A stretch of 64,000 nt of DNA from Methanofollis tationis (GTDB lineage Archaea; Halobacteriota; Methanomicrobia; Methanomicrobiales; Methanofollaceae), in assembly GCF_013377755.1 (NCBI RefSeq), contig NZ_JABXWR010000001.1:693104-757103 (forward strand). The letters run 5' to 3'. Position numbers and translations under genes: made by a program. Below are positions 17,916 through 63,517 of the stretch, in pieces. How positions within the stretch are numbered: position 1 is the stretch's first letter; the number at the start of each line of letters is the position of its first letter. The notes beneath the pieces are model-generated. The model was not told the DNA's origin, searched no databases, and saw only the letters and a program-made list of their open reading frames with translations.

Positions 17916-18063
17916 AGATTCTCTGTTTTTCATGCCCACCCATAAATCTGGCGTTCACGATCCCTGAGAGCCCCAAAATCAGCAAAAAACGCACTGCCCC
18001 GAACCAATCCATGGAAAAATTCCGATGAGTGCCCGAACACGGGTTCCATTATTATCCAGCGCA

Positions 18064-31327: not shown

Positions 31328-31332
31328 ATCAC

Positions 31333-36996: not shown

Positions 36997-37022
36997 TATC
37001 TCCGCCTGTGCATTTTCTGGAT

Positions 37023-38000: not shown

Positions 38001-38094
38001 CCCTATTTTTTAGAACAGGTCATCCATTTGCCATATAATCACGGCATTATTCAGAACCCTTATCGTATAGAACAATAACCATTATCTATCTTCC

Positions 38095-41000
38095 ATGACC
38101 CCTTCCAGATTCGACCCGATGCAGGCCCTGGATACCATCTCCTGGGCATACCGCACATTTGTCAGTTCATTCCAGAAATTCAAAAATCCCGTCATCAAAG
38201 ACTGGATCGACGAACGGATCACAGAAGGCTCCCTCCTCTATAAAGGTCCATACATCGAACTGGCCCGCAGGTACGCCCCCGGCGACACCTTCGAGACCCT
38301 CGTCAGGGAAGAGATCATCCACCCCGCCACCCCGCGCTGCTTCTCCAGAGACCCCGAAGACCCTGACGCCCCTCCCGTCCACCTCTACCGCCACCAGAGC
38401 GATGCCATCCGCTCGATCATCAAAGGGCAGAACACCGTCATCACCTCGGGCACCGGATCTGGCAAATCCTTCTGCTTCTCCATCCCCGTCGTCTCCACCG
38501 CCCTTACGATGCAGGACCAGGGCCTCACCGGCATAAAAGCGATCTTCGTCTACCCGATGAACGCCCTCGCCAACTCCCAGTACGACGACCTCGCCCTCAG
38601 ACTCAGGGGCTCTGGCCTGAAGATCGCCATATACACCGGCGACACCCCGCACACCCGCGACGAAGCCCTCATCTCCTACCGTGAACGCACCGGCAGGACA
38701 GCCCCCTACGACAGCGAACTCATCTCCCGCGAAGAGATCAAACGCTCCCCGCCAGACATCCTGATCACCAACTACGTGATGCTCGAGTACATTCTCACCC
38801 GGTTCGAGGACAAAATCCTCTTCCCCGAAGAGAACCTCGGCATCCTCAAATACCTCGTCCTCGACGAGATCCACACCTACACCGGCAAAAAAGGCGCCGA
38901 CACCGCATACCTGATCAGGCGTCTCAAAGAGCACACAGGCACCGCCGGCACCCTCAGGTGCATCGGCACCAGTGCAACCGTACGCGAAGGCGAAGGCGAA
39001 AAATCAGGCGAAGCCATCGCCCTCTTCGCCGCAAAACTCTTCGGCGAACCCTTCGACCGCACCGCCGTCATCGCCGAGACCTTTCTCCGCCCCCCCCGCG
39101 GCACCGGCAGCAAACTCCCTGACCGCGTCCTGGTCCCCGAAACCTTCGACCGGGTACACGACCTGAACCCCGCGTACCTCAAAGACCTCGCTGAAGACCT
39201 CACCGGCGAACCCCTCGGGATCGGCAACCCATCCCCCGCATACCTCGGTGAAACCCTCGGCTCCCAGCGGACCATCCAGTTCATCGAAGACCAGCTCGCC
39301 GAAGAACCCAGGAGCATCCCCGACCTGATCCGCACCTACCGCGCCGAGGTCCGGCAGAACGCCACCTACGAAGAGGCAGCGCGTGAGATCATGGCCGCCT
39401 TCATCATGGGCATGTACGGTGAGATCCCCGTCGGCAACACCCTCCAGAAACGCTTCATCCCGAAGGTCCACATGTACTTCTCCCAGGGCAGAGAGATCAA
39501 GACCTGCCTCTCCCGCGACGGCCCGCACCTCCACGACGCCGGCGAAGTCACCTGCCCGCGGTGTGCAGAGAGAGACAGAACCCGTATCACCTTTCCCATG
39601 GTATTCTGCCGGGCATGCGGCCAGGAATACTACTCGGTCGAACTCCTCCCCGACAACACGCTCAGACCGCGCGACCTCGACACCCCTGCAAGCGAAGGTG
39701 AAGCCCTCTACCTCTACAAAGGGGAGTTCGGGGAAGACAGAGCAGCCCCGCCTGAATGGTGGTGTGACAAATCCGGTGAGGTAAAGGAGAGATACCGCAC
39801 CTTCGTCACCCCCAGAACCGGCACCTACTGCCCTGACTGCAACACCCTCTATATCGACGGGGAAAAGAACGACCCCTGCCTCTGCGCCGAGAAGATCCGC
39901 GTCACCCTCATCCCCATGCCCTTCCGCTTCTGTCCAGGCGAAGGCTGCGGTGTCTCCTATGACCTGAGAACGCGGCGAGAGTTCAACAAACTCTTCTCCT
40001 TCGGCACCGTCGGGCGATCGACCGCCACCGACATCCTCGTCTCAAACATGCTCACAACCCTCCCTGAATCCGAGCAGAAAGTCATCGCCTTCTCAGACAA
40101 CCGGCAGGACACCGCCCTCCAGGCCGCCCACATGAACAACATCCAGAAGCGGATCCACTTCAGAAGAGGTCTCTACCACACCCTCAAAGAGACCGGCGGT
40201 CCCCTCCCCCTCCTCGAAGCAGGGGACGAGATCTTCAACACCCTCTCCAGACACCATTCAGACGGAGCGCTGCCTGCCTTTGAGAACGATCCCGGTTCGG
40301 GCAGGATGCGGAGAAACTCCCGGGCCGAACCCATATACCGGAAATACCTCCTGATGAACACCCTCCTCGAGATGGGCTCAACCCGGCAGAAAAACCAGCC
40401 GAACCTCGAGGACGTCGGGCTCCTCAAGGTAACCTACGCCGGTCTGAACGAGATCGCCGCCGACACCTCCCTCTGGGAGACGAACCCCGCCCTCTCCTCG
40501 ATCCTCGCAGAACAGCGGGAAGACTACCTCAGGGGCTTCCTGGACATCATGCGCCACAATCTTGCGATCTCATCCGATTTCTTCACACGTCCCTACGAAT
40601 TCGCCGAGAGCATAGAACGTTTCCTCAACCCGGACATCCTCTTCCACAACGAACTCCTCTCGACGCGCCCGACCGGTTACAGCGACGACGCCAGCAGAAA
40701 CACACCCTACGCCACCGTCTACCGCCTCAGTCACCCCGGCGGCTCACTGGTCAAATGGACAAAAAAAGCGCTGAAAATCGACAACACCGAAGAGGCGCAG
40801 CAGATCATCTCGCTCGTTGAAGAAACACTCTGCAACGAAAAAGGGTTGAAAAAAGAGAAAATCCACTGGACCGGCACAATAACCATGATCAACCCGGAGA
40901 TCATCGACCTCAACCTTGCAGACCCTCAACAGGCAAACGTCTGCCGGAAATGCGGTCAGGTACACCACTTCAACGAACTCAACCTCTGCATAAACCCCAA

Positions 41001-43461
41001 CTGCACCGACCTCATCACCCGCGACCTCTCTGAAAACTACTTCGGGATCGAATACACACGGCCATTCCGCGAGGCGGTCCCGCTCCACGCCGAGGAGCAC
41101 AGTGGCCAGATCGACGGGGAAACCCGGAAAAAACTGGAGACACGCTTCAGGGATCAGAACAACAACCTCAACGTGATCGTATGCACCCCCACAATGGAAC
41201 TCGGGATCGACATCGGCACCCTCTCAGCGGTCTACCTGAGAAACGTCCCGCCCTCTCCCTCCAACTATGCGCAACGCGCCGGGCGTGCCGGCCGAAAATC
41301 ACAGGCATCCATGATCCTCACCTTCTGTGGCGTTGGATCCCACCGCGGCCCGCACGACCAGTACTTCTACCGCTACCCGGCCAAGATGATCTCGGGAAAA
41401 ATATCTCCACCTCGTTTCCTGATGGACAACCGGATGCTGATCCAGGCCCATATCCACGCCCTCATCCTTGAGATCATCACCCTCAAAATCCCGCAGAAGA
41501 TCGATGGCATCCTCGATTTCGAGAAAGAAAACCTCCCGATGTTCCAGGACGCCGACACCCCCGCCGACACCGAAAACCTCAGCAAGACCCGTCTGTCTGA
41601 GATGGTCGAAACACACAGAGACCGCATCCTCACCGCCGTGGAAAACGTCCTGGCAGAAGAGATGCAGTCCCTCGAATGGCTCGACACCCCGTTCATCACA
41701 CGGACCGTCGATTCGTTCATCATCTCATTCGATGGCGCATTCAATCTCTTCAGGAGCGAATATTCGGCGCTGCTCCGCGAACATGAAGAGATCAACATGT
41801 TCATGCAGAGAGGGCGGATCACCGACAGGCAGCGGGGGGCGTACCAACGGAGACGGGCCTCCATCGAGAGAAAACTCGATAACATGAGAAACGGTGGCGG
41901 AGACTTCACAACCTACCGCTACCTCGCCTCACAGGGTTTCCTTCCAAACTATGGCTTCCCCACCCAGGTCACATCTCTCGCTATCAACTATAAGGGTATA
42001 TTCGGAGCAGAAGAAGCAGAACTGAAGAGAGACCGGAACATCGCCCTGGTTGAATACGCCCCTGGAAACAGTGTATACTTCAGCGGGAACCGGTACTCCA
42101 TCAGAACCCCGCGGCTGAGAACCGAGAACAACCAGCCCGCGATGAGTTCGATCCTCATCTGTCCGTCCTGCTCAGCGGTCTACCTCGATGAGCGCGAGAT
42201 CGCCATGACCGGGGGCGCCTGCAGAAGTTGCGGCTCCTCGCTCGAGCACGTGGACCCCAACCACGCCGCCATCGAGATGCCCGACCAGCTTGCAGAGTCG
42301 CGCTCGATGATCACCAGCGACGAGGAGGAGCGCCAGCGCCTCGGCTATCAGGTCACCCGCCACTACACGCCCTCAACAACCCGCCAGTTCTTCGCGGCCG
42401 GGGATCTCGAAGCCCCCCTGATCTGCATCTCCTATGACCATGCAGGCAAGATCATCAGCGTCAACCATGGCCCCATACCCTCAGACAGGGACGAGCCTGT
42501 ATCTGGATTTACACTCTGCACTGCCTGCAACCGCTGGATTTTCGGGAAAAACGGCGTGCAAGAACACCTGGACTCAACGAACGAGACGAAGCGGTGCTGG
42601 AGACGCGGCACAGAGGAGAACATCATCAGAAACATCGTTCTCTACACCGACACCCGGCATGACGTGATCAAAATCGATGTGCCGGTCCCTCCTGACAGCG
42701 AGGGCAACCCTCTTGATAAAGAGTTGTACACCTCCTTCTTTGCCACACTCGCGCAGGCGATCATCGAAGGCGTCCAGATCAGCATGAATGTCGATATGGA
42801 CGAGGTGCGCTACTTCCTGATGCCCGATCCCGGGGACAGAACAAAGTCCAGCATCATCATTTATGAGACCTCAGAAGGCGGGGCAGGGATTCTCGAATCG
42901 ATCTTCAACCGCTCCGCCTTCCACGAGGTAATCAGGCAGGCGCTGACCATCCTCCATGAATACGACGAGAAAAAATGCGATCGGGCATGCTATGAATGCC
43001 TGTGCAACTACTACAACCAGTACGACCATGACAAGTTCGACAGAAAACTTGTGCTCCCCCTCCTCCGCAGGATCTTGACCGCAGATGTCCGCCGTGTCGC
43101 CGACTCCTCCCCTTCGACGAAGGCCGCGCTTGAGAAACTCCTTGCTACCTGTGAATCCTCCTTTGAGAGAGAGATTCTGGAGAAGATATACGAGGCAGGC
43201 CTTCCCCTTCCTGATGGCGGGCAGGAGCCCATCGCAGAAGGCGATGAGATCGTCGCCCGCCCAGATTTTATCTACAGAAGCAGCGGGCACACCATCGCGA
43301 TCTTTGTCGACGGCCCTGACCATGACACAGACGCTCAGAGACGCGACGATGAGAAAAAGAGGGACCGACTGGACCTGATGGGCTACACGGTCTTTGCCAT
43401 ATCATACCGGGATGAAGAGGACAGATGGATCAACGCCCTCTCTGAACTGCTGTATCAGTGA
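38095..43461 (+). CDS. MrfA/DrmA-B-like DEAD/DEAH helicase (DUF1998) fused to a Vsr/DUF559-like nuclease
   Basis: A 1788-residue protein. Lobe 1 has HRHQSDAIRSI, Walker A TSGTGSGKS (about 117-125) and DEIH (about 257). Cysteine pairs at about 485-510 (CPRCAE, CRACG) and 578-600 (CPDC, CLC) suggest zinc ribbons. Lobe 2 at about 1027-1075 has CTPTMELGIDIG and NYAQRAGRAGR. The DUF1998 part (about 1568-1660) ends in the metal-site motif CDRACYECLCNYYNQ. The final 110 residues (ARPDFIYRSSG, IFVDGPDHD, KRDRLDLMGYTVFAI) look like a Vsr/DUF559 PD-(D/E)XK-type nuclease. MrfA-type helicases act in repair and in DISARM and related defence; a single-chain nuclease fusion would unwind and cut. Confidence 0.85.
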   Translation: MTPSRFDPMQALDTISWAYRTFVSSFQKFKNPVIKDWIDERITEGSLLYKGPYIELARRYAPGDTFETLVREEIIHPATPRCFSRDPEDPDAPPVHLYRHQSDAIRSIIKGQNTVITSGTGSGKSFCFSIPVVSTALTMQDQGLTGIKAIFVYPMNALANSQYDDLALRLRGSGLKIAIYTGDTPHTRDEALISYRERTGRTAPYDSELISREEIKRSPPDILITNYVMLEYILTRFEDKILFPEENLGILKYLVLDEIHTYTGKKGADTAYLIRRLKEHTGTAGTLRCIGTSATVREGEGEKSGEAIALFAAKLFGEPFDRTAVIAETFLRPPRGTGSKLPDRVLVPETFDRVHDLNPAYLKDLAEDLTGEPLGIGNPSPAYLGETLGSQRTIQFIEDQLAEEPRSIPDLIRTYRAEVRQNATYEEAAREIMAAFIMGMYGEIPVGNTLQKRFIPKVHMYFSQGREIKTCLSRDGPHLHDAGEVTCPRCAERDRTRITFPMVFCRACGQEYYSVELLPDNTLRPRDLDTPASEGEALYLYKGEFGEDRAAPPEWWCDKSGEVKERYRTFVTPRTGTYCPDCNTLYIDGEKNDPCLCAEKIRVTLIPMPFRFCPGEGCGVSYDLRTRREFNKLFSFGTVGRSTATDILVSNMLTTLPESEQKVIAFSDNRQDTALQAAHMNNIQKRIHFRRGLYHTLKETGGPLPLLEAGDEIFNTLSRHHSDGALPAFENDPGSGRMRRNSRAEPIYRKYLLMNTLLEMGSTRQKNQPNLEDVGLLKVTYAGLNEIAADTSLWETNPALSSILAEQREDYLRGFLDIMRHNLAISSDFFTRPYEFAESIERFLNPDILFHNELLSTRPTGYSDDASRNTPYATVYRLSHPGGSLVKWTKKALKIDNTEEAQQIISLVEETLCNEKGLKKEKIHWTGTITMINPEIIDLNLADPQQANVCRKCGQVHHFNELNLCINPNCTDLITRDLSENYFGIEYTRPFREAVPLHAEEHSGQIDGETRKKLETRFRDQNNNLNVIVCTPTMELGIDIGTLSAVYLRNVPPSPSNYAQRAGRAGRKSQASMILTFCGVGSHRGPHDQYFYRYPAKMISGKISPPRFLMDNRMLIQAHIHALILEIITLKIPQKIDGILDFEKENLPMFQDADTPADTENLSKTRLSEMVETHRDRILTAVENVLAEEMQSLEWLDTPFITRTVDSFIISFDGAFNLFRSEYSALLREHEEINMFMQRGRITDRQRGAYQRRRASIERKLDNMRNGGGDFTTYRYLASQGFLPNYGFPTQVTSLAINYKGIFGAEEAELKRDRNIALVEYAPGNSVYFSGNRYSIRTPRLRTENNQPAMSSILICPSCSAVYLDEREIAMTGGACRSCGSSLEHVDPNHAAIEMPDQLAESRSMITSDEEERQRLGYQVTRHYTPSTTRQFFAAGDLEAPLICISYDHAGKIISVNHGPIPSDRDEPVSGFTLCTACNRWIFGKNGVQEHLDSTNETKRCWRRGTEENIIRNIVLYTDTRHDVIKIDVPVPPDSEGNPLDKELYTSFFATLAQAIIEGVQISMNVDMDEVRYFLMPDPGDRTKSSIIIYETSEGGAGILESIFNRSAFHEVIRQALTILHEYDEKKCDRACYECLCNYYNQYDHDKFDRKLVLPLLRRILTADVRRVADSSPSTKAALEKLLATCESSFEREILEKIYEAGLPLPDGGQEPIAEGDEIVARPDFIYRSSGHTIAIFVDGPDHDTDAQRRDDEKKRDRLDLMGYTVFAISYRDEEDRWINALSELLYQ

Positions 43462-43602: not shown

Positions 43603-46600
43603 TCACCGACCCCGGAAAGCAGAGTAAGGGCTTTGCAACCTCCCCAGCGCCCGATCCATCTCCTTCTTCACTTCAGGATCGGGTTCACGCCGCCTCAGTT
43701 TCATCAGATCGCTCCGGGCATGTGTGTCCCTGAGGAGACCCAGGGCCCATGCCGCCTTTTTCCGAACCCCTGCCGCCGGGTCTTTGAGACAGGGAAGCAG
43801 CACCTCTGTCACCCGTCGATACCGGATCAGACCAAGCGCCTCGATCGCCCGCTCACGGACCCCCGGGTCTTTATTTTTTAACAGGGCGATCAGGGGATCG
43901 ATTGCCTCGGGTCCTTCCTTGACAAGGAGCTGGACGATCCTGCCCCGATCCTTCGGAGATGTGTTTTCTTTCAGTAATACGATCAACTGCTCAACTCTGC
44001 TCTGACCCATCGACTCCGGCATCTCATCTGGATCGCCACCTGCACCGGGCCGGGGTCTTCCACTCACTTCTCTCTCCCCGGCACTATCCCCCCCACACCG
44101 CAGGATCAACCCCCTGATCACCGCCGGCTCCCTCCCACCGATGGCCAGCAGCCAGCGCTGGCTCGGCACCTCCATCATCTGCTCATTCCCGTACGCCGAC
44201 CTCAGCACTCTCGCCCACCCCTCATCGGTGAGCGGTGGTCTCATCCCCTCCAGGAAACTGAGCAGCCGCGCCCGCACCTCAGGCAGGATCGATTCGACGA
44301 TATTCCTGACCTTGATCTCGCCGAAGTCCTCGGTCGCCAGGCCCGGCATCTCATCTGGATCGTCACCTGCACCGGGCCGGGAACTTCTCCTCACTTCTCC
44401 CTCCCTGGCACTATCCCCCCCATACCGCAGGATCAACTCCCTGATCGCCGCCGGTTCCCTCCCGGCGATGACCAGCAGCCAGCGCTGGCTCGGCACCTCC
44501 ACCATCTGCTCATCCCTGTACGCCGACCTCAGCACCCGCGCCCACCCCTCATCGGTCAGGGGGCCGGTCATCCCCTCCAGCAGGCCGACCAGCCGCGCCC
44601 GCGCCTCGGGCAGGATCGATTCGACGATATTCCTCACCTTGATCACGCCGAAGTCATCGGTCGCCATGCCCTCATGGCCGGCATAATATGTCCGGACCGC
44701 CTCCTCGGACGCCTGTTCAAAGGCAGAGAAGACCTCGGGCTCATCGGCCGCCTCTTCGGTGATCGGGATCCCCATCTTCAGGGCCACATCGGTGATCCAT
44801 GCGAGATCGTTCTGGTAGGTAAACGAGTCCTCCGAGACAATATAATTGCGGGGAACGGCCACGAAGTGGTGGAAGACCGGCTTTTTCCCCGGCCGGTTCC
44901 GCAGGATCCTGCCCAGGCGCTGGATCAGCTGGAGTTTCGTCTTCGACGAAGCCACGTTGATCCCGACCTCCGCGTCCGGAATATCGATACCCTCGTCGAG
45001 CATCCGCGGGGCGATCAGCACGCCGGTCCTCGCCGCCCTGAAGGCCTGGAGGGCGTGCTTCGCCTCCCCGTCCTTCAATTTCGAATGGACGATGAAGGCC
45101 GGCACCGTCCCGGAGAGACGCTCATAGACCCGCTCGCAGGTCGCAATATCCATCGCAAAGAGCACGCACTTCTTCGCCCCGCCCAGGTTCCGCGCCAGCC
45201 TGATCGCCTCCTCGAGTTTCGGCGACGACCGGTGGATCACCCACCGGCGTTTGTTGATCAGGCCGATCATCTGGAGCCACTCGTCCGGGATCTCCACGCT
45301 GCGGTACCGGAGATCGGTCATCAGGCGGACAAAGTCAGAGAGGCTCTCAAACCGCTCAAACCGGTTCCTCGACAATACCCTGATCTGTTCTTTCTGGGTG
45401 GCGTTGATGTAGTTCAGGAGTTTCCTGATGCTCTCGGTGATCGAGGCGAACTCCTCCTCCTCCATGATATCCAAGAACGTCTTGTGGACCACAAGGTTGA
45501 ACTCCGGGATGATCCCGTCCCGCCGTGCATCGGCCAGCGTATAGGTATAGACCGTCCTCCCGAGGCACCCGTCCAGGACATCGGTCCGCCCGCGCCCCTC
45601 CACCGTCGCCGAGAGTCCCATCTTCCATTTGCAGGGAACGGTCAGCGCATTCCGAAACTGCGGCCCGGCCCCGTGGTGGACCTCGTCGACGATGAGGAGG
45701 TCGGTGCTGTACTGTCCCGGATCCCTCATCACCATCTGGAAGGTGTTGAACGAGATCTCAAACTTCCCCTTATACGAGACCGGCACCGTATACTCCTCGT
45801 CCGGGTCTCCCAGAAACCCCAGTTTCTCGATCGCCTCCCGCCGCCACTGGTTCAGGATCGCCCGCGAATGGCAGAGCACCAGCACCCGCAGGGCGCGGTG
45901 GACTCTGAAGAGATGATAAGCCGTGGCAAGACCGACCAGGGTCTTACCGGTCGCCGTTGCCATCTCCAGCACCCCTTTCCCCCCGGCACCGAGCCAGCGG
46001 TCGCGGGCCTGGACCTGGTGCTTCCAGAGTGAGAGCAGGACCTCGGGCGTCCCGGCGATCTCGCGGAGGCCCTCGTCGGATGGGGGCCAGGCGCCGAGGT
46101 AATCGCCCCACTTTTTTGCGTTCTTCAGGCCGAGGTAGAACTCCATCGCAAAGAGCGAACTCCCCACCGAGAAGAGCCGGGCGCTCTCGTCGATCGGTGA
46201 GGGCGGCAACGCGATCTTCACGGCGATCTTCTTGAGGATCTGGACCTTCTGGATCTCGGGGTAGGTGTGGAGGGCGGTGACCAGGTGTTTTCTGAACCCG
46301 GAGAATTCTCCCCAGGCGTAGTCTGCGTCAGATCCCTCGATGACCCGCTCTGAGAGCACGGCAGCAGCAGTCTCTGCGACATAATCCTCCAGGAGCTGGT
46401 AGTCGGGCCCGGCGGTGTCGAGCCTGGGAAAGAAGAGGGTGCGATGAAAATTGCGGTGGTGGTATTCGTTATCGTAATGGTTGAGGAGCTCCTCATCGGC
46501 CAGACTGAGGGCGACCGGGAGGGGATGGGGGTCGAGCGTCTGCTCCCTGAAATGGTCATAGGTGAAACGCTCCGGGTGTTCGAGATATTCCAGTTCATAT

Positions 46601-46617
46601 GCCGAGAGGTGTTTCAT
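43603..46617 (-). CDS. Superfamily 2 helicase with duplicated 109-aa module and C-terminal HEAT repeats
   Basis: A 1004-residue protein. An N-terminal domain of about 180 residues has no strong signature. The helicase core follows: LWKHQVQARDRWL, Walker A MATATGKTLVG (about 221), DEVHHG (about 309), LSATVEG, and motif VI LIQRLGRILRNRPGKK (about 570). Residues about 648-866 are two tandem copies of a 109-residue helical module (IKVRNIVESILPE, DEGWARVLRSAY, EVPSQRWLL). About 870-995 are HEAT/PBS-type repeats (DPGVRERAIEALGLIR, DPAAGVRKKAAWALGLLRD). It converges with the MrfA-like gene, 142 nt apart. The HEAT tail suggests a protein- or DNA-binding scaffold; function is inferred to be defence by location. 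Confidence 0.82.
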   Translation of the reverse strand: MKHLSAYELEYLEHPERFTYDHFREQTLDPHPLPVALSLADEELLNHYDNEYHHRNFHRTLFFPRLDTAGPDYQLLEDYVAETAAAVLSERVIEGSDADYAWGEFSGFRKHLVTALHTYPEIQKVQILKKIAVKIALPPSPIDESARLFSVGSSLFAMEFYLGLKNAKKWGDYLGAWPPSDEGLREIAGTPEVLLSLWKHQVQARDRWLGAGGKGVLEMATATGKTLVGLATAYHLFRVHRALRVLVLCHSRAILNQWRREAIEKLGFLGDPDEEYTVPVSYKGKFEISFNTFQMVMRDPGQYSTDLLIVDEVHHGAGPQFRNALTVPCKWKMGLSATVEGRGRTDVLDGCLGRTVYTYTLADARRDGIIPEFNLVVHKTFLDIMEEEEFASITESIRKLLNYINATQKEQIRVLSRNRFERFESLSDFVRLMTDLRYRSVEIPDEWLQMIGLINKRRWVIHRSSPKLEEAIRLARNLGGAKKCVLFAMDIATCERVYERLSGTVPAFIVHSKLKDGEAKHALQAFRAARTGVLIAPRMLDEGIDIPDAEVGINVASSKTKLQLIQRLGRILRNRPGKKPVFHHFVAVPRNYIVSEDSFTYQNDLAWITDVALKMGIPITEEAADEPEVFSAFEQASEEAVRTYYAGHEGMATDDFGVIKVRNIVESILPEARARLVGLLEGMTGPLTDEGWARVLRSAYRDEQMVEVPSQRWLLVIAGREPAAIRELILRYGGDSAREGEVRRSSRPGAGDDPDEMPGLATEDFGEIKVRNIVESILPEVRARLLSFLEGMRPPLTDEGWARVLRSAYGNEQMMEVPSQRWLLAIGGREPAVIRGLILRCGGDSAGEREVSGRPRPGAGGDPDEMPESMGQSRVEQLIVLLKENTSPKDRGRIVQLLVKEGPEAIDPLIALLKNKDPGVRERAIEALGLIRYRRVTEVLLPCLKDPAAGVRKKAAWALGLLRDTHARSDLMKLRRREPDPEVKKEMDRALGRLQSPYSAFRGR
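44020..44673 (-). repeat. Tandem duplication of 327 bp inside the helicase gene
   Basis: Two head-to-tail 327-bp units (44,347-44,673 and 44,020-44,346) encode 109-residue copies that are largely identical, for example GLATEDFGEIKVRNIVE against GMATDDFGVIKVRNIVE. The frame is kept. High identity implies recent duplication or gene conversion. Confidence 0.85.
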
Positions 46618-47478: not shown

Positions 47479-47658
47479 TCACTTCTTCCGGTACACATTC
47501 ACCCCGATCGTGATCTCCTCATGCCCCGGCACCGACACATTCCCCTCAGTCGAGGCGATCGTGATCGACTTCCCGGTCTTCGACACCCCGAACTCCTGCG
47601 CGAGATCGACCGTGATCACCAGCCTATCCCCCTCCACCTTCATATCGACATTTTTCAT
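47479..47658 (-). CDS. Small conserved protein downstream of Orc1/Cdc6
   Basis: 59 residues from ATG 47,658, rich in beta-strand-like segments (GDRLVITVDLAQEFG, SITIASTEGNVSV, EITIGVNVYRKK). It overlaps the 3' end of the Orc1/Cdc6 gene by 35 nt on the same strand and is probably co-transcribed. I do not recognise a characterised family. It might be a DNA-binding or replication accessory protein, but nothing in the sequence shows this. Confidence 0.55.
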   Translation of the reverse strand: MKNVDMKVEGDRLVITVDLAQEFGVSKTGKSITIASTEGNVSVPGHEEITIGVNVYRKK

Positions 47659-48811
47659 CGTCGCACACTCCTGCAGCACATTTCAACGACGCCCCCGATG
47701 AACCTGCCGGGACCTGGAGCACCTCCTCCACTCCCTCCCGCACAAAAATCTCCCGCGTCCGCCCCTTCTCATGCCGCACCTTCAGGTCCAGCAGCCTGAG
47801 AAACTCCAGCTTCCCCAGCCGCTCATGGAACGTCGAATAACTGATCCGCTCCCTCTCGCCGAGACGCTTATACACCGCCCCCGCCGTCGCCGGCCCATCG
47901 CCCTCCACCCAGGCCGCCAGCACCGCATCGAGCACCGCCCGCTCACTCGAAGAGAGCGTGCGCACCACCGTCGCCACCTCCAGGTGCCGGGAGACCTCGA
48001 ACGCCGCCGCCAGGTCCCCCACCGTCACCTCGGTCCGCGCCTCCCGCTCGGCCGTCGTGGCCGCCCGCCTCACCAGGTCCAGACCCATCCGGAGATCGCC
48101 GCAGGCATATGTCCGCTCCACCAGATACTCCAGCGCCGCCGGCGGCACCACCCCCGGGTACAGCCCCATCCTGATCCGGTCGAGGAGGATCTCCCGGATC
48201 TCCGCCGCTCCATAGGGCATGAAATAGACGTTCGCGGCGTGGAGCACCGAGAGCGTCGCCGGGTTGAGCGTGCGGGAGAAATCGGTCGCCAGGTCGGATA
48301 TCGTCAGAAACACCCCGGTGTGGGTGCCCGGCCACGCCTCGTACATCCTGAGGATCGCCGAGAGCACACGGTTCAGCGTCCCGTCCGGGATCAGGTAGTG
48401 GGCGTCGTCCAGGCAGACCACGAGCGCCGCCTTGCGCTCGATCAGGCGCAGGGCGACCTTCTCCAGGATCCGCTCGTTCGCAACCCCTGACCTGGGCGGC
48501 ATATGGCCGAAGACGGCGAAAAAGATCTGGCTGTAGATCGTGTTGGGCGCCCGTTCGGTCTGGCAGGAGACGAGCACCGGCACGACCCGCTGCGTCACCT
48601 CCCGCACCTCGGCAAAGATCCGGCGCACGGCGGTGGTCTTGCCCGTGCCCGGCGGCCCCCGGAGCACGGTGTTCAACGGCGAAAAGCCCTGGACGGCCGG
48701 CCGCAGGGCGAAGGCGAGGTCGTTCATCTGGGCGTCGCGGTAGTTGAAGACCTCGGGGAGGTGGGTGGTCTCGAAGATCGCCGGGTCGCGAAAGAGCGTC
48801 TGGTCGCTCAT
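47624..48811 (-). CDS. Orc1/Cdc6-family replication initiator
   Basis: About 395 residues from ATG 48,811; ATG 48,829 would add six. It is a AAA+ ATPase with Walker A LRGPPGTGKTTAV (about residue 55), Walker B ALVVCLDDAHYL (about 130), sensor-type LTISDLATDFSRTL and the sensor-2 region CGDLRMGLDLVRRA. The C-terminal winged helix is about 310-380 (AVYKRLGERERISYSTFHERL). Orc1/Cdc6 binds origin repeats and loads MCM. Its presence inside an integrated element points to an element-specific replicon. I found no convincing origin-recognition repeat array next to it. Confidence 0.88.
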   Translation of the reverse strand: MSDQTLFRDPAIFETTHLPEVFNYRDAQMNDLAFALRPAVQGFSPLNTVLRGPPGTGKTTAVRRIFAEVREVTQRVVPVLVSCQTERAPNTIYSQIFFAVFGHMPPRSGVANERILEKVALRLIERKAALVVCLDDAHYLIPDGTLNRVLSAILRMYEAWPGTHTGVFLTISDLATDFSRTLNPATLSVLHAANVYFMPYGAAEIREILLDRIRMGLYPGVVPPAALEYLVERTYACGDLRMGLDLVRRAATTAEREARTEVTVGDLAAAFEVSRHLEVATVVRTLSSSERAVLDAVLAAWVEGDGPATAGAVYKRLGERERISYSTFHERLGKLEFLRLLDLKVRHEKGRTREIFVREGVEEVLQVPAGSSGASLKCAAGVCDDEKCRYEGGGG

Positions 48812-48865
48812 AAGGGAGGGATGTCTCATGGTGAAGGGGTGAACGGGAGGGTATATAGGGGCGGG

Positions 48866-49381
48866 CGGGAACAACTGGAAAAAGCGCTCATGCCCGACCA
48901 GCTGGTGGGCAGGGTGCTGGACATGGGGCAGCTCACCGTCAAGATACGCAAGATCGACATAGCCTCTCACCCCTTACAGGAGTGGGACCAGATCAAGGCC
49001 TCCGAAGGTCAGGAGAATACGATGTATATCATCTTCCTCGTGGTCATCATGTCCGCGATCCGGGAGGTCGTCGTCGACCGGTATGATATGAAGACCGCAA
49101 AGGTGCTTATTGTCGACAATCCCTTCGGTTCGACGGGGGCACATTATCTCTGGGAGAAGATCGGGTCGATCCTTGAGCGCAACAACGTCCAGATCATCTG
49201 CTCGGGACATAATATCGGTACAGAAGTGAGAGAGTTCTTCCCGGTCAACCATATTCTCACCGAGGAGAGGTCGGCGTCGGGGAGGACCAGGATCGGGATC
49301 AGGTTTGAAGGGGTGGGAAAGGAACGGGATCGGCTTGAGCGGCAGAAGCGAGAAGATGTCAGGGCCTGGCTCGGATCATGA
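48866..49381 (+). pseudogene. Relic: C-terminal ATPase lobe of an SMC-like protein
   Basis: The frame encodes a degenerate signature (WDQIKASEGQENTMYIIFL), a Walker B-like strand KVLIVDNPFGSTGAHYLWE and the following VQIICSGHNIGTEVRE, the C-terminal half of an ABC/SMC-type head. The N-terminal Walker A lobe and coiled coil are missing; the recognisable homology begins abruptly inside the Orc1/Cdc6 promoter region. ATG 48,890 could in principle start a product of 163 residues. Best read as a deletion remnant of a larger defence-type ATPase. Confidence 0.6.
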
Positions 49382-49736
49382 TAGGTGCCACCACTGCCGA
49401 ATCATACGGTGAGGTCATAGAACTGTTTCAGTCGAACCGACAAGTCTAAAGAGAGGCTGAGCGAGATTATATCCATCAAATCGAATAAAGAAGTCATCGA
49501 TTGGGTGTTCAGTAAGTATTTCCTGGCAATCACAACAGAGGAGAAAATCTGCTCAAAGAACTGTCTCGCTTGAAAACCAGGCAAGGCATCATCATTATAA
49601 CCAGAAAAAAGTCTGCCCGGGGGGTTAGACATCGGATATGTTCGTGACGTGGCCGAATGATCAGGGAAATTTCAGAAAGGCTTTAATTTTCTTTCTCCGA
49701 ACTGGATCGATCAGAGCAGGACTCAACTGAGGAAAG
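49382..49736. other. Intergenic region with coding debris
   Basis: 355 bp with no intact gene. One stretch near 49,450-49,560 reads on the plus strand as a plausible but stop-bounded peptide (SKERLSEIISIKSNKEVID), likely debris of another gene. GAGGAAAG at its right end is the ribosome-binding site of the DUF4062 gene. Confidence 0.4.
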
Positions 49737-50375
49737 ATGAAGAGCAACAAAAAACTCACGATCATGGTTTCATCTACAGTCTATGGCATCGAAGAGCTTC
49801 TGGACCGGATCTACACGCTTTTAACTGAATTCGGGTATGAAGTCTGGATGTCGCACAAGGGAACCATGCCGGTCTTTTCACAACACTCAGCGTTTGAGAA
49901 TTGTATAGCGGGGGTAACAAACTGCGACCTCTTTCTCGGATTGATCACCCCTCATTACGGTAGTGGAAAAGATGCAGACGGACTTTCCATCACCCACCTT
50001 GAACTGAGAAAAGCCATCGAACTCAATAAACCGCGCTGGCTTCTGGCCCATGATCATGTAATTTTCGCCAGATCGCTGCTGAACCATCTGGGTTATAAAG
50101 GAGAGAGCGGCCGAGAAAAACTTTCACTGGAGAAAAACCAGATCCTGGATGATCTCCGTGTCATTGACATGTACGAAGAGGCCATTCTCTCTCAGAAACC
50201 CCTGCAGGACCGACAGGGGAACTGGGTCCAGAAGTTCGGTTCTGATGATGACGCTGCTCTTTTCGCTATGGCACAGTTCTCTCGCTATCAGGAAGTCGAG
50301 GCGTTTGTGCACGAGAACTTACGAGATAGTGCCCGTGTTTCTCGAATCATCCAGGACAGGGGAGGGCGGCTATGA
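49737..50375 (+). CDS. DUF4062-domain protein
   Basis: A 212-residue protein. It opens KLTIMVSSTVYGIEELLD and has FGYEVWMSHKGTMP, CIAGVTNCDLFLGLITPHYG and ITHLELRKAIELNKPRW, which is the DUF4062 fold, a flavodoxin/TIR-like alpha-beta domain found at the N-terminus of NTPases and with defence proteins. GAGGAAAG precedes the ATG. Its TGA overlaps the ATG of the AlbA_2 gene, so both are made together. A TIR-like NAD-handling role has been proposed for similar folds, but I see no proof here. Confidence 0.85.
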   Translation: MKSNKKLTIMVSSTVYGIEELLDRIYTLLTEFGYEVWMSHKGTMPVFSQHSAFENCIAGVTNCDLFLGLITPHYGSGKDADGLSITHLELRKAIELNKPRWLLAHDHVIFARSLLNHLGYKGESGREKLSLEKNQILDDLRVIDMYEEAILSQKPLQDRQGNWVQKFGSDDDAALFAMAQFSRYQEVEAFVHENLRDSARVSRIIQDRGGRL

Positions 50376-51814
50376 AACCGGAGAATATAGATGAGGCTCT
50401 GCTGCCTGGAGATGACCAGAGCATTGAATTTCTGCCGGAGTGCCAGGATCTTGAGGTCGTCGGTTCTGTGGTCTGCGGTTTTCTCAATACGTCCGGTGGC
50501 TCTCTCGTCTGTGGTGTGAATGGCAGGGGGGATATCATCGGCATCGACGACGCCGATACTGTAGCGAAGAATCTCGAACAAGGACTGCTCCACGGTGTTT
50601 CTCCTGGGGCACTGGTATCTGTTCAGGTCCATCCGGTCGGAGAAAAGAGGGTGCTGATCGTCGAGGTGCCGGCCGGCAAAGATCTACCGTACGCCTTTGA
50701 GCATGTGATCTATATCCGTGACGGTCAGACCACAAAAAAAGCCGATATCGATACGATCCGCGATATGGTGCTCCGGAAACAGGTGGAACCCGAACGATGG
50801 GAGCGCCGTTTTTCTTCTGCAGACATGAAGGAGGATATGGATGAAGATGAAGTCCGCTCCACCGTGAATGCAGTGACCGAAAGGGCCAGGCTCCAGTTTA
50901 GAGAGAGCAAAAATCCGATCAGGGTTCTTGAAGACCTCGGAGTGTGTCGCTATGGGCGCCTGACCAATGGCGGCGATGTCCTTTTTGGAGCCAATCCAGC
51001 CATGCGTTATCCGCAGGTACGGGTCCGTGCTGCCTGTTTTACGACAAACAGGGCAGATGACACGTACCGGGATCTGAAATCCTATGAAGGCCCACTGGTA
51101 CCGGTTTTAGAGGAAGTTTACCGTTTTATTCAACGAAATACACCCACAATCTCACGTTTTGACAGGGAGAGCCTGAACCGGCAGGACGAGCCTCTCTACC
51201 CTATAGCCGCGATCAGGGAAGGGTTGGTAAATGCGTTTGTCCACCGGGATTACAGCGATTTTTCCGGGGGGATTAGCATTCACATCTATCCGGACCGTCT
51301 GGAGATCAGGAACGCCGGCAGGTTTCCTGAAGGTGTGACGCCCGATAACCTCATGTCCGGGCATATCTCGGTGCTGCGCAATCCGGACATTGCCCATGTG
51401 CTTTATCTGCGAGGATTAATGGAGATGATAGGCCGTGGCAGTGTGATGATCAGGAAGGCCTGTGACGAACGCGGTTTACCTCCGCCGAAGTGGTCGGAAG
51501 ACGATCGTGGTGTCACATTAACCTTCTATGCCCCGGAAGTCACCCCGGAAGTCACCCCGGAAGTCACCCCGGAAGTCACCCCGGAAGTCACCCCGGAAGT
51601 CAGAAAGATGCTCGGTGTCCTTGAGGGAGAAATGTCGCGGCAGGATCTTCAGGACGCTCTCGGTCTGAAGGACAAAGAACACTTCAGGAAAGCCTATCTG
51701 CTGCCGTCCCTCCGGGAAAACCTGATCGAAATGACGCTCCCCGATAAACCACAGAGCAGCAAGCAAAAATATCGGCTCACAGGAAAAGGACGCACCCTGT
51801 CAGAAAAGTTTTGA
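50372..51814 (+). CDS. AlbA_2 (Schlafen-type)/HATPase_c_4 protein with 12-bp repeat hinge
   Basis: A 480-residue protein. AlbA_2 domain (about 10-120): QSIEFLPECQDLEVVGSVV, FLNTSGGSLVCGVNGRGDI. A GHKL-like ATPase region (about 200-385) has AIREGLVNAFVHRDYSDFSG (N-box), RLEIRNAGRFPEGV and MEMIGRGSVMIRKA. Then comes a V-T-P-E tetrapeptide repeated about six times, a winged helix and the end QKYRLTGKGR. These proteins often accompany toxin-like or sensor partners; DUF4062 is its partner here. The repeat array can change length without shifting the frame. Confidence 0.85.
   Translation: MKPENIDEALLPGDDQSIEFLPECQDLEVVGSVVCGFLNTSGGSLVCGVNGRGDIIGIDDADTVAKNLEQGLLHGVSPGALVSVQVHPVGEKRVLIVEVPAGKDLPYAFEHVIYIRDGQTTKKADIDTIRDMVLRKQVEPERWERRFSSADMKEDMDEDEVRSTVNAVTERARLQFRESKNPIRVLEDLGVCRYGRLTNGGDVLFGANPAMRYPQVRVRAACFTTNRADDTYRDLKSYEGPLVPVLEEVYRFIQRNTPTISRFDRESLNRQDEPLYPIAAIREGLVNAFVHRDYSDFSGGISIHIYPDRLEIRNAGRFPEGVTPDNLMSGHISVLRNPDIAHVLYLRGLMEMIGRGSVMIRKACDERGLPPPKWSEDDRGVTLTFYAPEVTPEVTPEVTPEVTPEVTPEVRKMLGVLEGEMSRQDLQDALGLKDKEHFRKAYLLPSLRENLIEMTLPDKPQSSKQKYRLTGKGRTLSEKF
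51531..51602 (+). repeat. 12-bp tandem repeat, six copies, encoding the V-T-P-E hinge
   Basis: CCCCGGAAGTCA repeats at 51,531, 51,543, 51,555, 51,567, 51,579 and 51,591 without variation. Because 12 is a multiple of three, slippage changes hinge length only. A related three-copy array lies in the relic at 47,192-47,227. Confidence 0.9.
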
Positions 51815-52496
51815 TGGTCTTTGCTTATGCGGCATTGACAGGATCATTGGTCAATTGCCCCCACCTTCAGACCGAGACGATCCACGAATAGGGATCCCGA
51901 TATACCGAACCCAAACATTAAAGGCAGACTGATACGAGGACGACGATGTTTGCATCGAGCGAATGATATCGCTGAACCTCCAGCACCCCATCAGGATGCT
52001 CCATCACCCTGTCTATACCCTTTGAAATATTCTGGCTCATCGATCAGCCTCAAATCCCCTTTTTCTACCATGACAAGGGCCACTGCCTTGTTGATCGTAG
52101 GGAGCTGGTCGAAGACGTCCCTCCTCAGCGTTTTAACCGGTTTCATGCCCTCACTCCTCTCCCTGAAAGAAGGTGTAGGGGGCCGTCCCCGATCCTTCTG
52201 TTCACGTCATACAGGCAGGCTTCTCCGCCAGATTCATGGTTCCATCCTCTGGATGATGAGTTGTCTTCTTTCTGGGTCATCAAGGGAGAGTCGGAGGGAG
52301 CAGCATATAAACAAAAGTCCATAATGTCACATTAAAATGGCCATTATCACGATCGAAGCAAAATAAGCGGCTTGAATATTCCTCTGAAGAACCCCGGCGT
52401 TCTCCAGGGGGCACCGCGCTCCCCTGTTGGGGTGAGAAGGTCTACTGCCAGAAATTTATCCAGAAAAAATGTCACGTTCTCAAATAGGGGAGAGGT
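51815..52496. other. Intergenic region between the AlbA_2 gene and the integrase
   Basis: About 680 bp with only one possible small gene (minus strand, 51,991-52,146). The remainder shows no recognisable protein or RNA. Base composition becomes AT-rich around 52,310-52,380. Confidence 0.5.
51991..52146 (-). CDS. Possible 51-aa protein, unknown
   Basis: ATG at 52,146 preceded by GGGAGAGGAGTGAGGG, a plausible ribosome-binding stretch. The peptide opens MKPVKTLRRDVFDQLPTINK and contains VALVMVEKGDLRLIDEPEY, which looks protein-like rather than random. No homologue recognised. It might also be the tail of a decayed gene. Confidence 0.35.
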   Translation of the reverse strand: MKPVKTLRRDVFDQLPTINKAVALVMVEKGDLRLIDEPEYFKGYRQGDGAS

Positions 52497-53759
52497 TCAG
52501 GTCCTCGTCGACCCCGATGCCTCTGTAATATTCTGCAAGGTTCTGGTCAGTTTTTCGAGCATGGCAGGATTGGTCAGGATCTTTTTGATATAATACTCGT
52601 CGGTGGCCTCCTGTGCCCCCCTCAGTTCAATCTCTGCGTCCTGGTCCAGCGCAAGTCCGCAGGTCGCACAGAAGTGATAGGTCGGGCCGTTTACCGAGTG
52701 GCACCGCGGGCACTGTTTGGCCTCCAGAGCCACGCTCCTCTCTTCCTCCTCGGTCGTCACACCGGTGAGCTTGGCCATGGCCGTGTCGATATCCCGGTTG
52801 GTGAGATGGGCATAGGTCTGGAACATACCGGTGTTGAGACTCCCCCACATCATCAGTTTGATCACCGACTCAGGCATCCCCTGCTGGATCAGGTGCGTGA
52901 TCCTGGAATGTCTGAAGAGATGGGGATTGATATGCTTCTTGACCCCGGCCCGTTGTGCGATGACCCTGAACTGCTTGACAACGCCTGCATATTGCAGGGG
53001 CTGCTGGGTGGTTGCGGTCAGGAAGACGTGTGCTTCCGGGGTAATTTTCTTCGGATACGCTGCCTTCCATGCGGCAAGATACGGGCGGGCAATGACAAGA
53101 GGGACATATCGCGGTTTCTGGGTCTTGCCGTCCACATTCAGGGTGACATTCCAGTTGGTGAACTTCACCTGTCCCCAGGTGAGCGTGCCGAGTTCGCCGA
53201 TCCGGCAGCCCGACTCATAGAGGGTGGCAAGCAGCGCCCGGTCTTTCGGGGTGCGGGCCGCCTCAAGCATTGCCCTGATCTCGTCCTCGGTCAGGAGTTC
53301 CTCGGCGGTCTTGGTCATCCGCTGATAGGCCGGCGGTTTGATCTTCTTCACCTTCGCTTCAGGAATGGCGCTATAGCCGTTCTCGATCATCCAGAGATAA
53401 AAACGGCGGAGAAACCGGACCATATCGGAGACCGTGTTCTGCTTGAAGAGGGGTGCACTGTCTTCTCCGGTGGCGGCCCTGATCTTGTTGACGGCGGTAT
53501 ACAGGTCGCCAGCGGTCGCCCCGGCAAACGGTGGGAGGAAACGGCGGAGACCGACGATCTGGATGGCGATCTTGTACTGGCGTACGGCGCTTATTCCGCT
53601 CTCGGCGGTGATCTCGGCGAGATACTCCCTGAGAAGACCCGCATCCTGCGGTGTAATCTCGCCGTTATGTGTCTTCCGTGCAATCATCTCCTGGGTGTTC
53701 CTGAGATAGGTTGCATCAGACTTATGGAACGATGTTCCTGTCCGTACTCCTTTTGCCAT
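52497..53759 (-). CDS. int: Tyrosine recombinase/integrase of the element
   Basis: A 420-residue, unpartitioned tyrosine recombinase. A SAM-like core-binding domain (about 1-130) precedes the catalytic domain with Arg in YESGCRIGELGTLTWGQV (about 188), H-x-x-R in NPHLFRHSRITHLIQQG (about 284), W in LMMWGSLN and the nucleophile Tyr in GMFQTYAHLTNRDID (about 315). A C-terminal zinc ribbon (CPRCHSVNGP and CATCG) follows. The start at 53,759 is 62 bp from the right attachment core. All catalytic residues are kept, so excision may still occur. Confidence 0.92.
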   Translation of the reverse strand: MAKGVRTGTSFHKSDATYLRNTQEMIARKTHNGEITPQDAGLLREYLAEITAESGISAVRQYKIAIQIVGLRRFLPPFAGATAGDLYTAVNKIRAATGEDSAPLFKQNTVSDMVRFLRRFYLWMIENGYSAIPEAKVKKIKPPAYQRMTKTAEELLTEDEIRAMLEAARTPKDRALLATLYESGCRIGELGTLTWGQVKFTNWNVTLNVDGKTQKPRYVPLVIARPYLAAWKAAYPKKITPEAHVFLTATTQQPLQYAGVVKQFRVIAQRAGVKKHINPHLFRHSRITHLIQQGMPESVIKLMMWGSLNTGMFQTYAHLTNRDIDTAMAKLTGVTTEEEERSVALEAKQCPRCHSVNGPTYHFCATCGLALDQDAEIELRGAQEATDEYYIKKILTNPAMLEKLTRTLQNITEASGSTRT

Positions 53760-53821
53760 AGATCTCCGTTGACCTATCCTTTATAAAAACATTGTTGGAT
53801 TTCAAACATTCTATTTGAAAG

Positions 53822-53869
53822 CCCCCTCGCAGCATCTTTTGTGGAGTTTTTTTGAGTTCGAATTTTGAA
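53822..53869. other. attR: right attachment site
   Basis: CCCCCTCGCAGCA (53,822-53,834) is identical to the last 13 bases of tRNA-Met, followed by CTTTTG, a short variable stretch, TTTTTGAGTTC and AATTTTGAA as at the left end. It is not part of a complete tRNA here. Confidence 0.85.
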
Positions 53870-54138
53870 GAGAACGGTTTTTTCCTTCGAGATCGCGCAT
53901 TCGTGATCTGCCGCATCTTTCGAGGGTCCAGATCACCATTGTGCCCGCCACTTTCTGATTGCGATAGTGGTCTCATGAGGAGATACGCGTTTTTCCCGGT
54001 TCACTGATTGTCGCGCCTCTGTACGGCGGTTTCCGTCTGCATCGCGCCGGTTACCTGCCATGCCTGCGGGCCTTACCTGCCATGCCGATGAGGCCGCGCC
54101 GGGGTGTCGGGTACATACATCAGTCACAAAAAAGAGGG
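53870..54138. other. Chromosomal region beyond attR, no gene
   Basis: No supportable coding or RNA gene. CATGCCTGCGGGCCTTACCTG and the following CATGCC repeat TTACCTGCCATGCC twice at 54,050-54,083, an 14-nt direct repeat of unknown meaning. Confidence 0.4.
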
Positions 54139-54447
54139 TTAGAAGGATGTGGCGGTCGGTTCCCCGGCGGCGTCTCCGATGAGAGCCCTCACAGACGCCG
54201 GCGAGATCCCGTACGCCTCTGAGATCTCCTGGAGCGCCTCATCGCGCGGCACGCCATTGTGAATCATGCCGGCAAACGAGCGCCTGACCATGCTCGAGAC
54301 CTGCTCGTCGGTATAGGTCCCCCGGACGTGGGCGTATTTCAGGATGTATTTTGCGAGGGTATGTTGAGAGTCGGCATGAACCTCGCACGAGACGGCCAGG
54401 TCGATCCAGATCCGCTGGCGATCAGGGAGGTCAACGGGTATCAGCAT
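54139..54447 (-). CDS. Uncharacterised small protein with HTH-like C-terminus
   Basis: 102 residues. The N-terminal part contains DLAVSCEVHADSQHTLAKY; the C-terminal part contains DEALQEISEAYGISPASVR, which has the spacing of a helix-turn-helix. ATG 54,447 overlaps the stop of the short upstream gene (ATGCTGA), indicating coupled translation. No family recognised. Confidence 0.55.
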   Translation of the reverse strand: MLIPVDLPDRQRIWIDLAVSCEVHADSQHTLAKYILKYAHVRGTYTDEQVSSMVRRSFAGMIHNGVPRDEALQEISEAYGISPASVRALIGDAAGEPTATSF

Positions 54448-54557
54448 GCTCCTGCCCCTGCGATCACGCGGACCTGCCCGGTCTCGGTCCAGCGGGTGGC
54501 TGTGAGGGTCTCGGCGAGTACCGTCTTCTGCTCTGCATTGCGGGAGATTGTTTTCAT
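54441..54557 (-). CDS. 38-aa peptide upstream of and coupled to the HTH-like gene
   Basis: ATG 54,557 follows GCAGGT. The peptide opens MKTISRNAEQKTVLAETLTA and ends in GAGAC. It overlaps the next start by seven bases. Size and coupling suggest a small regulatory or toxin-antitoxin-type partner, but nothing more can be said. Confidence 0.4.
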   Translation of the reverse strand: MKTISRNAEQKTVLAETLTATRWTETGQVRVIAGAGAC

Positions 54558-54934
54558 ACCTGCATCATCTCCATGGTGTGTCGGTGCTCCCTCGGGCCGA
54601 TCGCCTTCATAGGGGGCAGGGGGATCAGATGAGAGGTGTTGCATGGTTCGTCCTTCTGTCTGTGCACCGGTGTGAGCCCTGTGAAGAGCGCTATGAGATC
54701 GAGACGCCCCGGAGGGCGATCGAATGCAGCGGCGCCCGAAGAGCACCGAATAACAGGATATATTTCAGTTCTGGCCATCGTCTCGCACTGCGCAGATGAT
54801 GGGTCCGCCGACCATATCACTGATTGGATCAGGTGTCACCGGCAGCCCGAACTCCAGCGTGGTGCCGGGGGCATCGCCGCTCGAACCATGTATCACCTCC
54901 CGCTCCAACATCTACTCAAAGTTGAAAGTCGCCT
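54558..54934. other. Intergenic region upstream of the frameshifted regulator
   Basis: About 375 bp. No intact gene recognised; short frames in it look like shadows. AT-rich TATAT at 54,761 could be a promoter for either flank. Confidence 0.35.
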
Positions 54935-55275
54935 ATGCCGGATGATCTGATAGCAATCGTGGAAGAATCTCAGGATGTGAACAGCACCCTCATCTCCCGT
55001 GTGCGCCTGGAGATACTCTGGGCGCTCTCCGATCTCGGCGAGGACGGGCCACTGCACGGCAGCTCGAGGCCGCGCTGAACCTGAGCGACGGCGTGCTCTA
55101 TGCAAACCTCAAGAAACTCGTTGAGATGGGGTACCTCCGCTCCGAGAAAGTGACGCTTGAGGGGAAGGACCTCGAACTCTATGCGATCACCCCGGAAGGA
55201 CTTCTTGAGTGGCGGCGTGTCCGGGGCTGGCTCTGCAAACTCCCGGGCTGCGAAGGTGATGCCTGTGAACGATAG
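54935..55275 (+). pseudogene. Winged-helix transcriptional regulator with a one-base deletion
   Basis: ATG 54,935 opens MPDDLIAIVEESQDVNST and VRLEILWALSDLGEDG, which then runs into a premature stop. In another frame the protein continues TARQLEAALNLSDGVLYAN and LKKLVEMGYLRSEKV, ending in ...CEGDACER at 55,275. A single missing base near 55,045-55,050 restores a 113-residue MarR/ArsR-like winged-helix protein. GTG 55,093 could start a truncated C-terminal product. Sequencing error is possible. Confidence 0.75.
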
Positions 55276-55289
55276 AAGCAGGGTTCCGG

Positions 55290-55379
55290 ATGGATAAGGA
55301 CCGGTTCGAGCACCGGTTCATCGCCCAGAAGCTCGTCTACCTGCTGAAGCTGAAGGGTGTTGATATAGCGGTTCGTTGA
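55290..55379 (+). pseudogene. Truncated ORF next to the TnpB element
   Basis: 29 codons opening MDKDRFEHRFIAQKLVYLL and then stopping at the left side of the TnpB element. It follows the regulator by 14 nt. The peptide looks like the beginning of a larger soluble protein cut by the insertion. Confidence 0.45.
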
Positions 55380-56778: not shown

Positions 56779-56795
56779 CAGGGCCCATAATACTA
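56640..56795 (+). ncRNA. Probable reRNA/omega RNA overlapping the 3' end of tnpB
   Basis: In this family the guide RNA scaffold comprises the end of tnpB and the right-end hairpins, and the guide is the flank just outside. Here the G-C-rich hairpin at about 56,752-56,771 would close the scaffold. The guide would begin near 56,779 (CAGGGCCCATAATACTATA). Boundaries are inferred. Confidence 0.45.
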
Positions 56796-59178: not shown

Positions 59179-59232
59179 TGGCGGTCGCTCAGGGCCGGAC
59201 ACTTTTTGTGCGCAGGCGCCAGAGTGAGGAGC

Positions 59233-60564: not shown

Positions 60565-60595
60565 GAAAAAATGAATGCAGGAATCCCCCGGAACT

Positions 60596-61051: not shown

Positions 61052-61180
61052 ATGACAATCCCCCCGTACGGGCAGAGAGACTGGCAACAGTCCAGCATAT
61101 ATAAGTTTCCCCAGAGTCCGGGCATGCGGCCACCTCAACCTATTTTACAGCGCTCTGCCCTGATCATGAGGGAGGGTACC

Positions 61181-63407: not shown

Positions 63408-63517
63408 GAATATTTTTTTCAGATTACCACCCCGCGTACACCTGCTGCAGAGCAGGCGAACATGCAGTATTTTTTGCGATGCGGGAAGCATTAACCCCAC
63501 ATTCCGCACCACTTTTT

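Follow-up and report, generated by a model that had tools for sequence, protein, structure and literature searches.

The part of this archaeal helicase that varies as a recognition element would is, on comparison with its relatives, the C-terminal HEAT-repeat tail and not the number of modules that precede it. The gene lies in a stretch of 64,000 nucleotides from Methanofollis tationis (contig NZ_JABXWR010000001.1, positions 693,104 to 757,103 of the forward strand), which we call the window and whose numbering we use throughout. A conserved DNA motor, the C-terminal adaptor of which was replaced by recombination, probably best explains the data, with the conspicuous tandem duplication next to the tail being a tolerated by-product.

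Architecture of the protein and its duplicated module

The gene (43603..46617, minus strand), delimited by its open reading frame and Pfam matches, encodes a 1004-aa SF2 helicase with two C-terminal modules and a HEAT tail. Homologue alignment defines an N-terminal domain (aa 1-195; 46033..46617, minus strand) that lacks a Pfam match, shares 28-93% identity with aligned homologues, and is helical in a low-confidence full-length model (mean pLDDT 60.8). The helicase core (aa 196-600; 44818..46032, minus strand; delimited by Pfam and motif alignment) matches ResIII at aa 196-340 (59.4 bits) and Helicase_C at aa 477-574 (50.8 bits), both over the cut-off, and its segments MATAxGKT, DEVHH, SAT, and QRxGRxLR, which we take to be the Walker A, DExH, SAT, and QxxGRxxR motifs, are unchanged across all 18 aligned homologues. 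With both RecA-like domains and these motifs present, its sequence places the protein among XPB-like SF2 helicases of the ResIII/Helicase_C type. It also classifies as a HEAT-repeat protein by the Pfam HEAT_2 cut-off (70.9 bits against 27.7; best stretch aa 876-960). Fusion of HEAT repeats to an SF2 helicase had been considered uncommon; among close relatives it is instead the rule, with HEAT_2 matched by 16 of the 18 proteins of homologue alignment A1.

Between the core and the HEAT repeats lies a direct repeat with 327-bp spacing, confirming the in-frame 109-aa tandem duplication of the original prediction. In each 109-aa unit we treated the first 84 aa as the module and the remaining 25 as a linker: unit 1 (aa 651-759; 44341..44667, minus strand) comprises module c1 (44416-44667) and linker 1 (44341-44415), and unit 2 (aa 760-868; 44014..44340, minus strand) comprises module c2 (44089-44340) and linker 2 (44014-44088). 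Tandem Repeats Finder independently recovered the repeat at 44016-44671 (period 327, 2.0 copies, score 1056). The two units, described earlier as nearly identical, are in fact 88.1% identical in DNA over 327 bp (39 differences), which is far beyond chance, and share 84 of 109 amino acids (67 of 84 in the module alone). Because the differences are scattered, indels are absent, and the frame is open, an assembly artefact is unlikely.

A profile search for the module covered 50 loci, reduced to 45 distinct proteins by removing five duplicates (L029, L033, L042, L140, and L139) that were identical over aa 60-400 or nearly the whole sequence; L139 matches L061 over aa 60-400 but has a longer open frame. 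The count takes in L020, L038, and L039, absent from an earlier filtered homologue set. Two modules occur in the window protein, one in 42 proteins, and none was detected in two, L144 (a partial match) and the haloarchaeal L063, whose related proteins score only 12-16 bits. The module is weak, at 12-16 bits, in six of the 42 (L060, L061, L062, L141, L142, and L143), and scores 24 bits in the cut-short L041. An ungapped self-comparison for internal repeats, for which the window protein served as positive control (50 of 60), gave best values of 12-17 of 60 in 41 of the other 44 distinct proteins, while the haloarchaeal L060, L062, and L063 reached 30-34 of 60 in their C-terminal halves. Furthermore, the open frame of 12 relatives (L127-L138) stops 1-19 aa from the module, which marks the module as a family domain and not a repeat array. 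These sequences indicate that it is the normal, single-copy C-terminal domain of the helicase family and that the second copy in the window is the exception.

Residues G657, L680, W692, W713, L714, L715, R720, and P722 are preserved in both copies; across the 18-sequence alignment, G657, L680, W692, and W713 are invariant and the other four near-invariant. A module model, built for one region from five sequences, has a beta-hairpin and five helices (mean pLDDT 69.6; 60-94 by block over the module), so the module, described earlier as helical, is not purely so. Foldseek found zero matches to the module fold in the PDB at E<=0.001. A resemblance to part of glutamyl-tRNA synthetase (best VIA-align Z 4.8) was too weak for naming the fold.

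Divergence of the HEAT tail and the constant/variable joint

Comparison with L023, from genome G002, reveals how unevenly the protein has diverged: protein identity is 94.6% in the core and 94.0% in module c1 but 41.1% in the HEAT tail (aa 869-1004; 43606..44013, minus strand; defined by Pfam, dS, and DNA search). The tail is about as different from L023 as from three relatives with cores only 64% identical (38.4-40.8%). Synonymous divergence from L023 is 0.21 in the core and 1.58, near saturation, in the HEAT tail. The same disparity holds in all ten pairs within the genus (five genes, four genomes), where HEAT dS is at least 1.37 or saturated and core dS is 0.21-0.91. In nine control pairs outside the genus (nine of the ten with core identity >80%, L051-L052 being left out), HEAT dS is 0.19-1.03 and core dS 0.18-0.49, an excess of at most about twofold, as in L021-L045 (1.03 against 0.49). 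Out-of-register alignment of HEAT repeats could contribute to inflating dS. Searching at the DNA level with the tail, independently of that alignment, gave outside its own genome a best match of 75% over 109 bp (the second gene copy of G002) and in L009 a single 27-bp patch (96%) at the tail start. The nearest protein relatives of the tail within the genus are tails of the same gene (38-49%). Since selection on the protein is not expected to raise synonymous divergence to this extent, the tails have probably been exchanged, and the strongly diverged window tail is a likely replacement relative to its congeners. More distant homologues end in a UvrD helicase (L058) or HNH_repeat arrays (L060, L062), or have no C-terminal addition that we could find (L020, L054).

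The joint between the constant and variable parts (43989..44422, minus strand) was located by DNA homology to four loci of the same genus. In all four the main homology block stops at 44415 (three loci) or 44422 (one), a boundary that coincides with the end of module c1. Similarity to L023, in register with c2, is weaker than the main block and continues through the linker to 43989, so that the joint looks imperfectly sharp. The duplication spans this joint, with the conserved part on one side and the diverged tail on the other.

Larger-scale comparison places the change in context. To the right of the gene, collinear blocks (48862..63494, no strand assigned; DNA comparison) are 92-98% identical to G002:C1:1325301-1336960, with a break at ~53.9-57.7 kb, and this collinearity identifies the window gene and L009/L023 as positional orthologues. 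Downstream, in comparison with G002:C1:1266000-1345800 (matches >=150 bp), homology returns at window position 17929, the sole exception before it being one 257-bp stretch at 68%. The intervening cassette carries DruE-, Csa3-, DrmD-, and DrmMI-like genes in the window, against a BrxC-PglX cassette in G002.

We infer from these comparisons a family plan in which an N-terminal domain, the helicase core, and one ~84-aa module would be followed by an exchangeable appendage: HEAT repeats here, and elsewhere in the family a UvrD helicase, an HNH_repeat array, or no addition at all. Within the genus of the window, recombination would swap the appendage, with a boundary at or shortly past the module end. 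The 109-aa unit of module and linker lies on this joint and may have arisen there by unequal or illegitimate recombination, leaving copy 1 as the continuing constrained module and copy 2 as a drifting, tolerated spacer between module and tail. The motor, an SF2 relative of XPB and RAD25, probably translocates on DNA; the module could couple it to the appendage; and the HEAT tail, as a putative docking or target-recognition part in defence, may dock a partner or a component of the invader. Exchange of the tail would then alter this contact and keep the motor.

A bolder version, which we advance tentatively, treats the protein as a defence motor with constant and variable regions, the module being a joint at which sensor tails are exchanged together with downstream cassettes and the duplication being a footprint of exchange. 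By analogy with restriction specificity domains, the exchanged tails could include diverged HEAT types, UvrD, and HNH_repeat arrays.

Genomic setting and relation to known systems

Homologues are patchily distributed: at E<=1e-60 they occur in 21 of 232 genomes of the class and at E<=1e-50 in 27 of 392 genomes of the phylum (own genome counted in both), and they are also found on plasmid and named contigs. Four of 12 examined genomes from the genus carry the family, with five genes in all. Among viral contigs 63 loci matched, in every case locally and inside query residues 149-582, with identities of 21-38%.

The convergent neighbour of the helicase gene encodes a DruE-like helicase with an MZB domain (38095..43461, plus strand; Pfam and PADLOC), and open reading frames nearby match DruE, Csa3, DrmD, DrmMI, and ShosA models. 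The DruE-like gene is immediately preceded by a Csa3-like CARF gene (PADLOC 1.6e-95; under the NCBIfam cut-off), the pair occupying 37008-43461. Genes for a DrmD-like helicase and for a DrmMI-like methylase that includes an AlbA_2 domain stand in a row with a ShosA/DprA-like gene at 23907-32974, possibly a DISARM-like or hybrid system; a 996-aa TPR protein at 33027-36017 matches the PADLOC TPR model (5.8e-217). Perfect 12-bp tandem repeats also occur at 51531-51602 (TPEV x6, in an AlbA_2/Fic-like_C ORF) and at 47187-47218 (TEQV x2.7, in a small ORF that neighbours the helicase).

An Orc/Cdc6-type AAA+ ATPase gene (47624..48970, minus strand) adjoins the helicase, as it does at L024:11530-13188 and L058:11537-12649, three loci in all. 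Neighbours change between loci, several having defence genes and others no matches among the neighbours scanned. The defence neighbours include BrxC-PglX (L023, L020), BrxP (L025), DrmD (L026), and Wadjet JetA/JetC (L023), and the homologues L046 and L047 adjoin dndC with presumed dndB and dndD. No partner gene conserved across the examined loci was found. A UvrD/GajB-like helicase gene occurs near the SF2 helicase at L020:4832-7891, L024:4845-7220, and L044:1-2263, and is fused to it in L058; a functional partnership between the two helicases is possible. On haloarchaeal plasmids, the homologues L060, L062, and L063 are ~1600 aa long and have long C-termini with a repeat at a 140-141-aa offset; Pfam HNH_repeat matches four stretches in the C-termini of L060 and L062. 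In the window genome PglZ had no match and DndC-like matches were weak (best E 4.5e-9), making dependence on BREX or Dnd unlikely; the protein probably works without either. Taken from gene content, the defence setting proposed originally is plausible, given the DruE, Csa3, DrmD, DrmMI, and ShosA matches and the neighbourhoods of homologues.

Several known systems resemble parts of this protein. Its best PADLOC match (2.1e-54) is PbeA, of the phosphorothioation-linked PbeABCD system, with which it shares a ResIII and Helicase_C motor and, through L046 and L047, homologues next to dndC. Passages of PMC6459918 and PMC10853773 report a PLD domain in PbeA and, for the vast majority of such systems, a fusion of the helicase with an HKD nuclease. 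In the window protein, however, a Pfam scan at E<=0.01 gave no match to any PLD family, the sequence contains no HxKx4D, and a HEAT tail is present instead of this nuclease. In a PADLOC search of 13 other, longer window ORFs for pbeBCD partners, the only matches were weak, generic ones to PbeC (best 2.9e-5, at 16193-17317), which ranked below other ATPase models. The motor matches TIGR04095 (dnd_restrict_1) partially, at 141 bits against a cut-off of 600, and the protein does not belong to this family of Dnd restriction enzymes. XPB/RAD25 translocases (2fwr, 6p4f) are sequence relatives of the motor, but the NCBIfam XPB model (NF045503) scores 63 bits against a cut-off of 610, and the window protein has an additional N-terminal domain, module, and tail. 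Since it lacks the PLD/HKD nuclease and stays below the Dnd-linked and XPB cut-offs, we provisionally regard the protein as a defence-island SF2 helicase of no established class.

In restriction specificity subunits, recombination swaps the target-recognition domain and the rest is retained. The likeness lies in the exchange of one domain by recombination with the remainder kept; however, the domains swapped there bind DNA, whereas the window helicase would swap HEAT repeats. BREX PglZ and BrxL likewise combine a constant part with swapped C-terminal domains, and rapidly evolving domains of PglZ have been proposed as invader-recognition modules, according to passages of PMC12839542. They are nevertheless other proteins, and those passages describe no comparable exchange joint. 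Given the variable C-termini that they report for PglZ and BrxL, the window design would be a variant of a known theme. Titles and abstract openings yielded no literature on the window helicase, which is not proof of absence.

Age of the copies and competing explanations

Core dS between the window gene and its nearest homologue (L009/L023, genome G002) is 0.21-0.22, and c1 and c2 differ by a dS of 0.20 in the module and 0.16 when the full unit is compared. The split between the copies is thus about as old as that between these genes, and to call the duplication recent overstates the case. Their later fates appear to differ. With L016 as outgroup, c2 has 14 unique amino acid changes and c1 has 1 (p=0.00098); three-point arithmetic with the same outgroup gives dN of ~0.10 and dS of ~0.10 on the c2 branch, against ~0.01 and ~0.10 on the c1 branch. 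The asymmetry seems weak or absent with other outgroups, the c2 and c1 counts being 13 and 4 with L009 (p=0.049), 9 and 2 with L010 (p=0.065), 10 and 2 with L011 (p=0.039), 5 and 3 with L029, and 4 and 3 with L030. It appears that c1 carries the function and that c2 is nearly free.

Four alternatives have to be weighed against replacement of the tail with a tolerated duplication. The two-module state may be older than the split from L009, which would then have collapsed to one chimeric module. We regard this as a serious but less than even prospect. The derived bases that L009 has in common with c1 lie in the 5' half of the module (33, 87, 111), those in common with c2 in the 3' half (154, 203, 230), and half-module likelihoods concur, favouring c1 with L009 in the 5' half (dlnL 2.4) and c2 with L009 in the 3' half (dlnL 4.9), c1 and c2 as sisters being the worst tree overall (RELL 0.019). 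These patterns suggest recombination at the module. However, the sites are few, derived site 156 unites c1 with c2, and over the whole module the sister relationship is not rejected (AU p=0.11; 1000 replicates, too few according to the program warning). Partial gene conversion would look alike: pS between c1 and L009 is 0.06, under all 41 core windows (0.103-0.272), while that between c2 and L009 (0.191) is typical. Somewhat doubtful, to our mind, is a crossover between alleles during cassette replacement, in which c1 would be the recipient's and c2, linker, and HEAT repeats the donor's. The duplication does sit at the place where similarity falls off and beyond which the cassettes differ, and DNA identity between c1 and c2 (88.1%) is about that between c2 and L009 (88.9%), whereas c1 and L009 share 96.4%. 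Linker 1, however, resembles linker 2 (88% DNA identity) more than the L009 linker, which weakens the case for such a crossover; c2 is no closer to L016 than c1 is (81.7 against 87.7%); and a donor allele was not found.

The two other alternatives concern function, and both are improbable. Among solved structures the motor part has its best relatives in RAD25/XPB proteins, as would suit a housekeeping DNA-repair helicase of XPB type with no part in defence, but the shortfall in the XPB model score, the patchy distribution across genus, class, and phylum, and the wealth of defence genes at several loci all speak against it. Slightly less credible still is the claim made for the repeat at the outset, namely that module count is a recognition repeat tuned by arms-race selection. 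One genuine change in copy number did occur, the unit is in frame, and the changes in c2 fall mostly at amino-acid positions; yet exactly one module in 42 of the 45 distinct homologues, two in the window alone, and frames that end close to the module in L127-L138 leave tuning by module number unsupported. Nor are two old modules fixed in all homologues, the window alone having two.

Probable replacement of the tail on a conserved motor shifts attention away from the repeat. The case also shows how a striking repeat can draw the eye from a neighbouring feature that says more. The extra module copy occurs in no examined relative, and the sharper contrast is found in the tails of relatives with nearly the same motors. 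If the exchange of tails has a function, it marks the portion of the helicase through which an invader is sensed or a partner docked, and the five tails on similar motors within one genus would constitute a natural exchange series for HEAT recognition in immunity.
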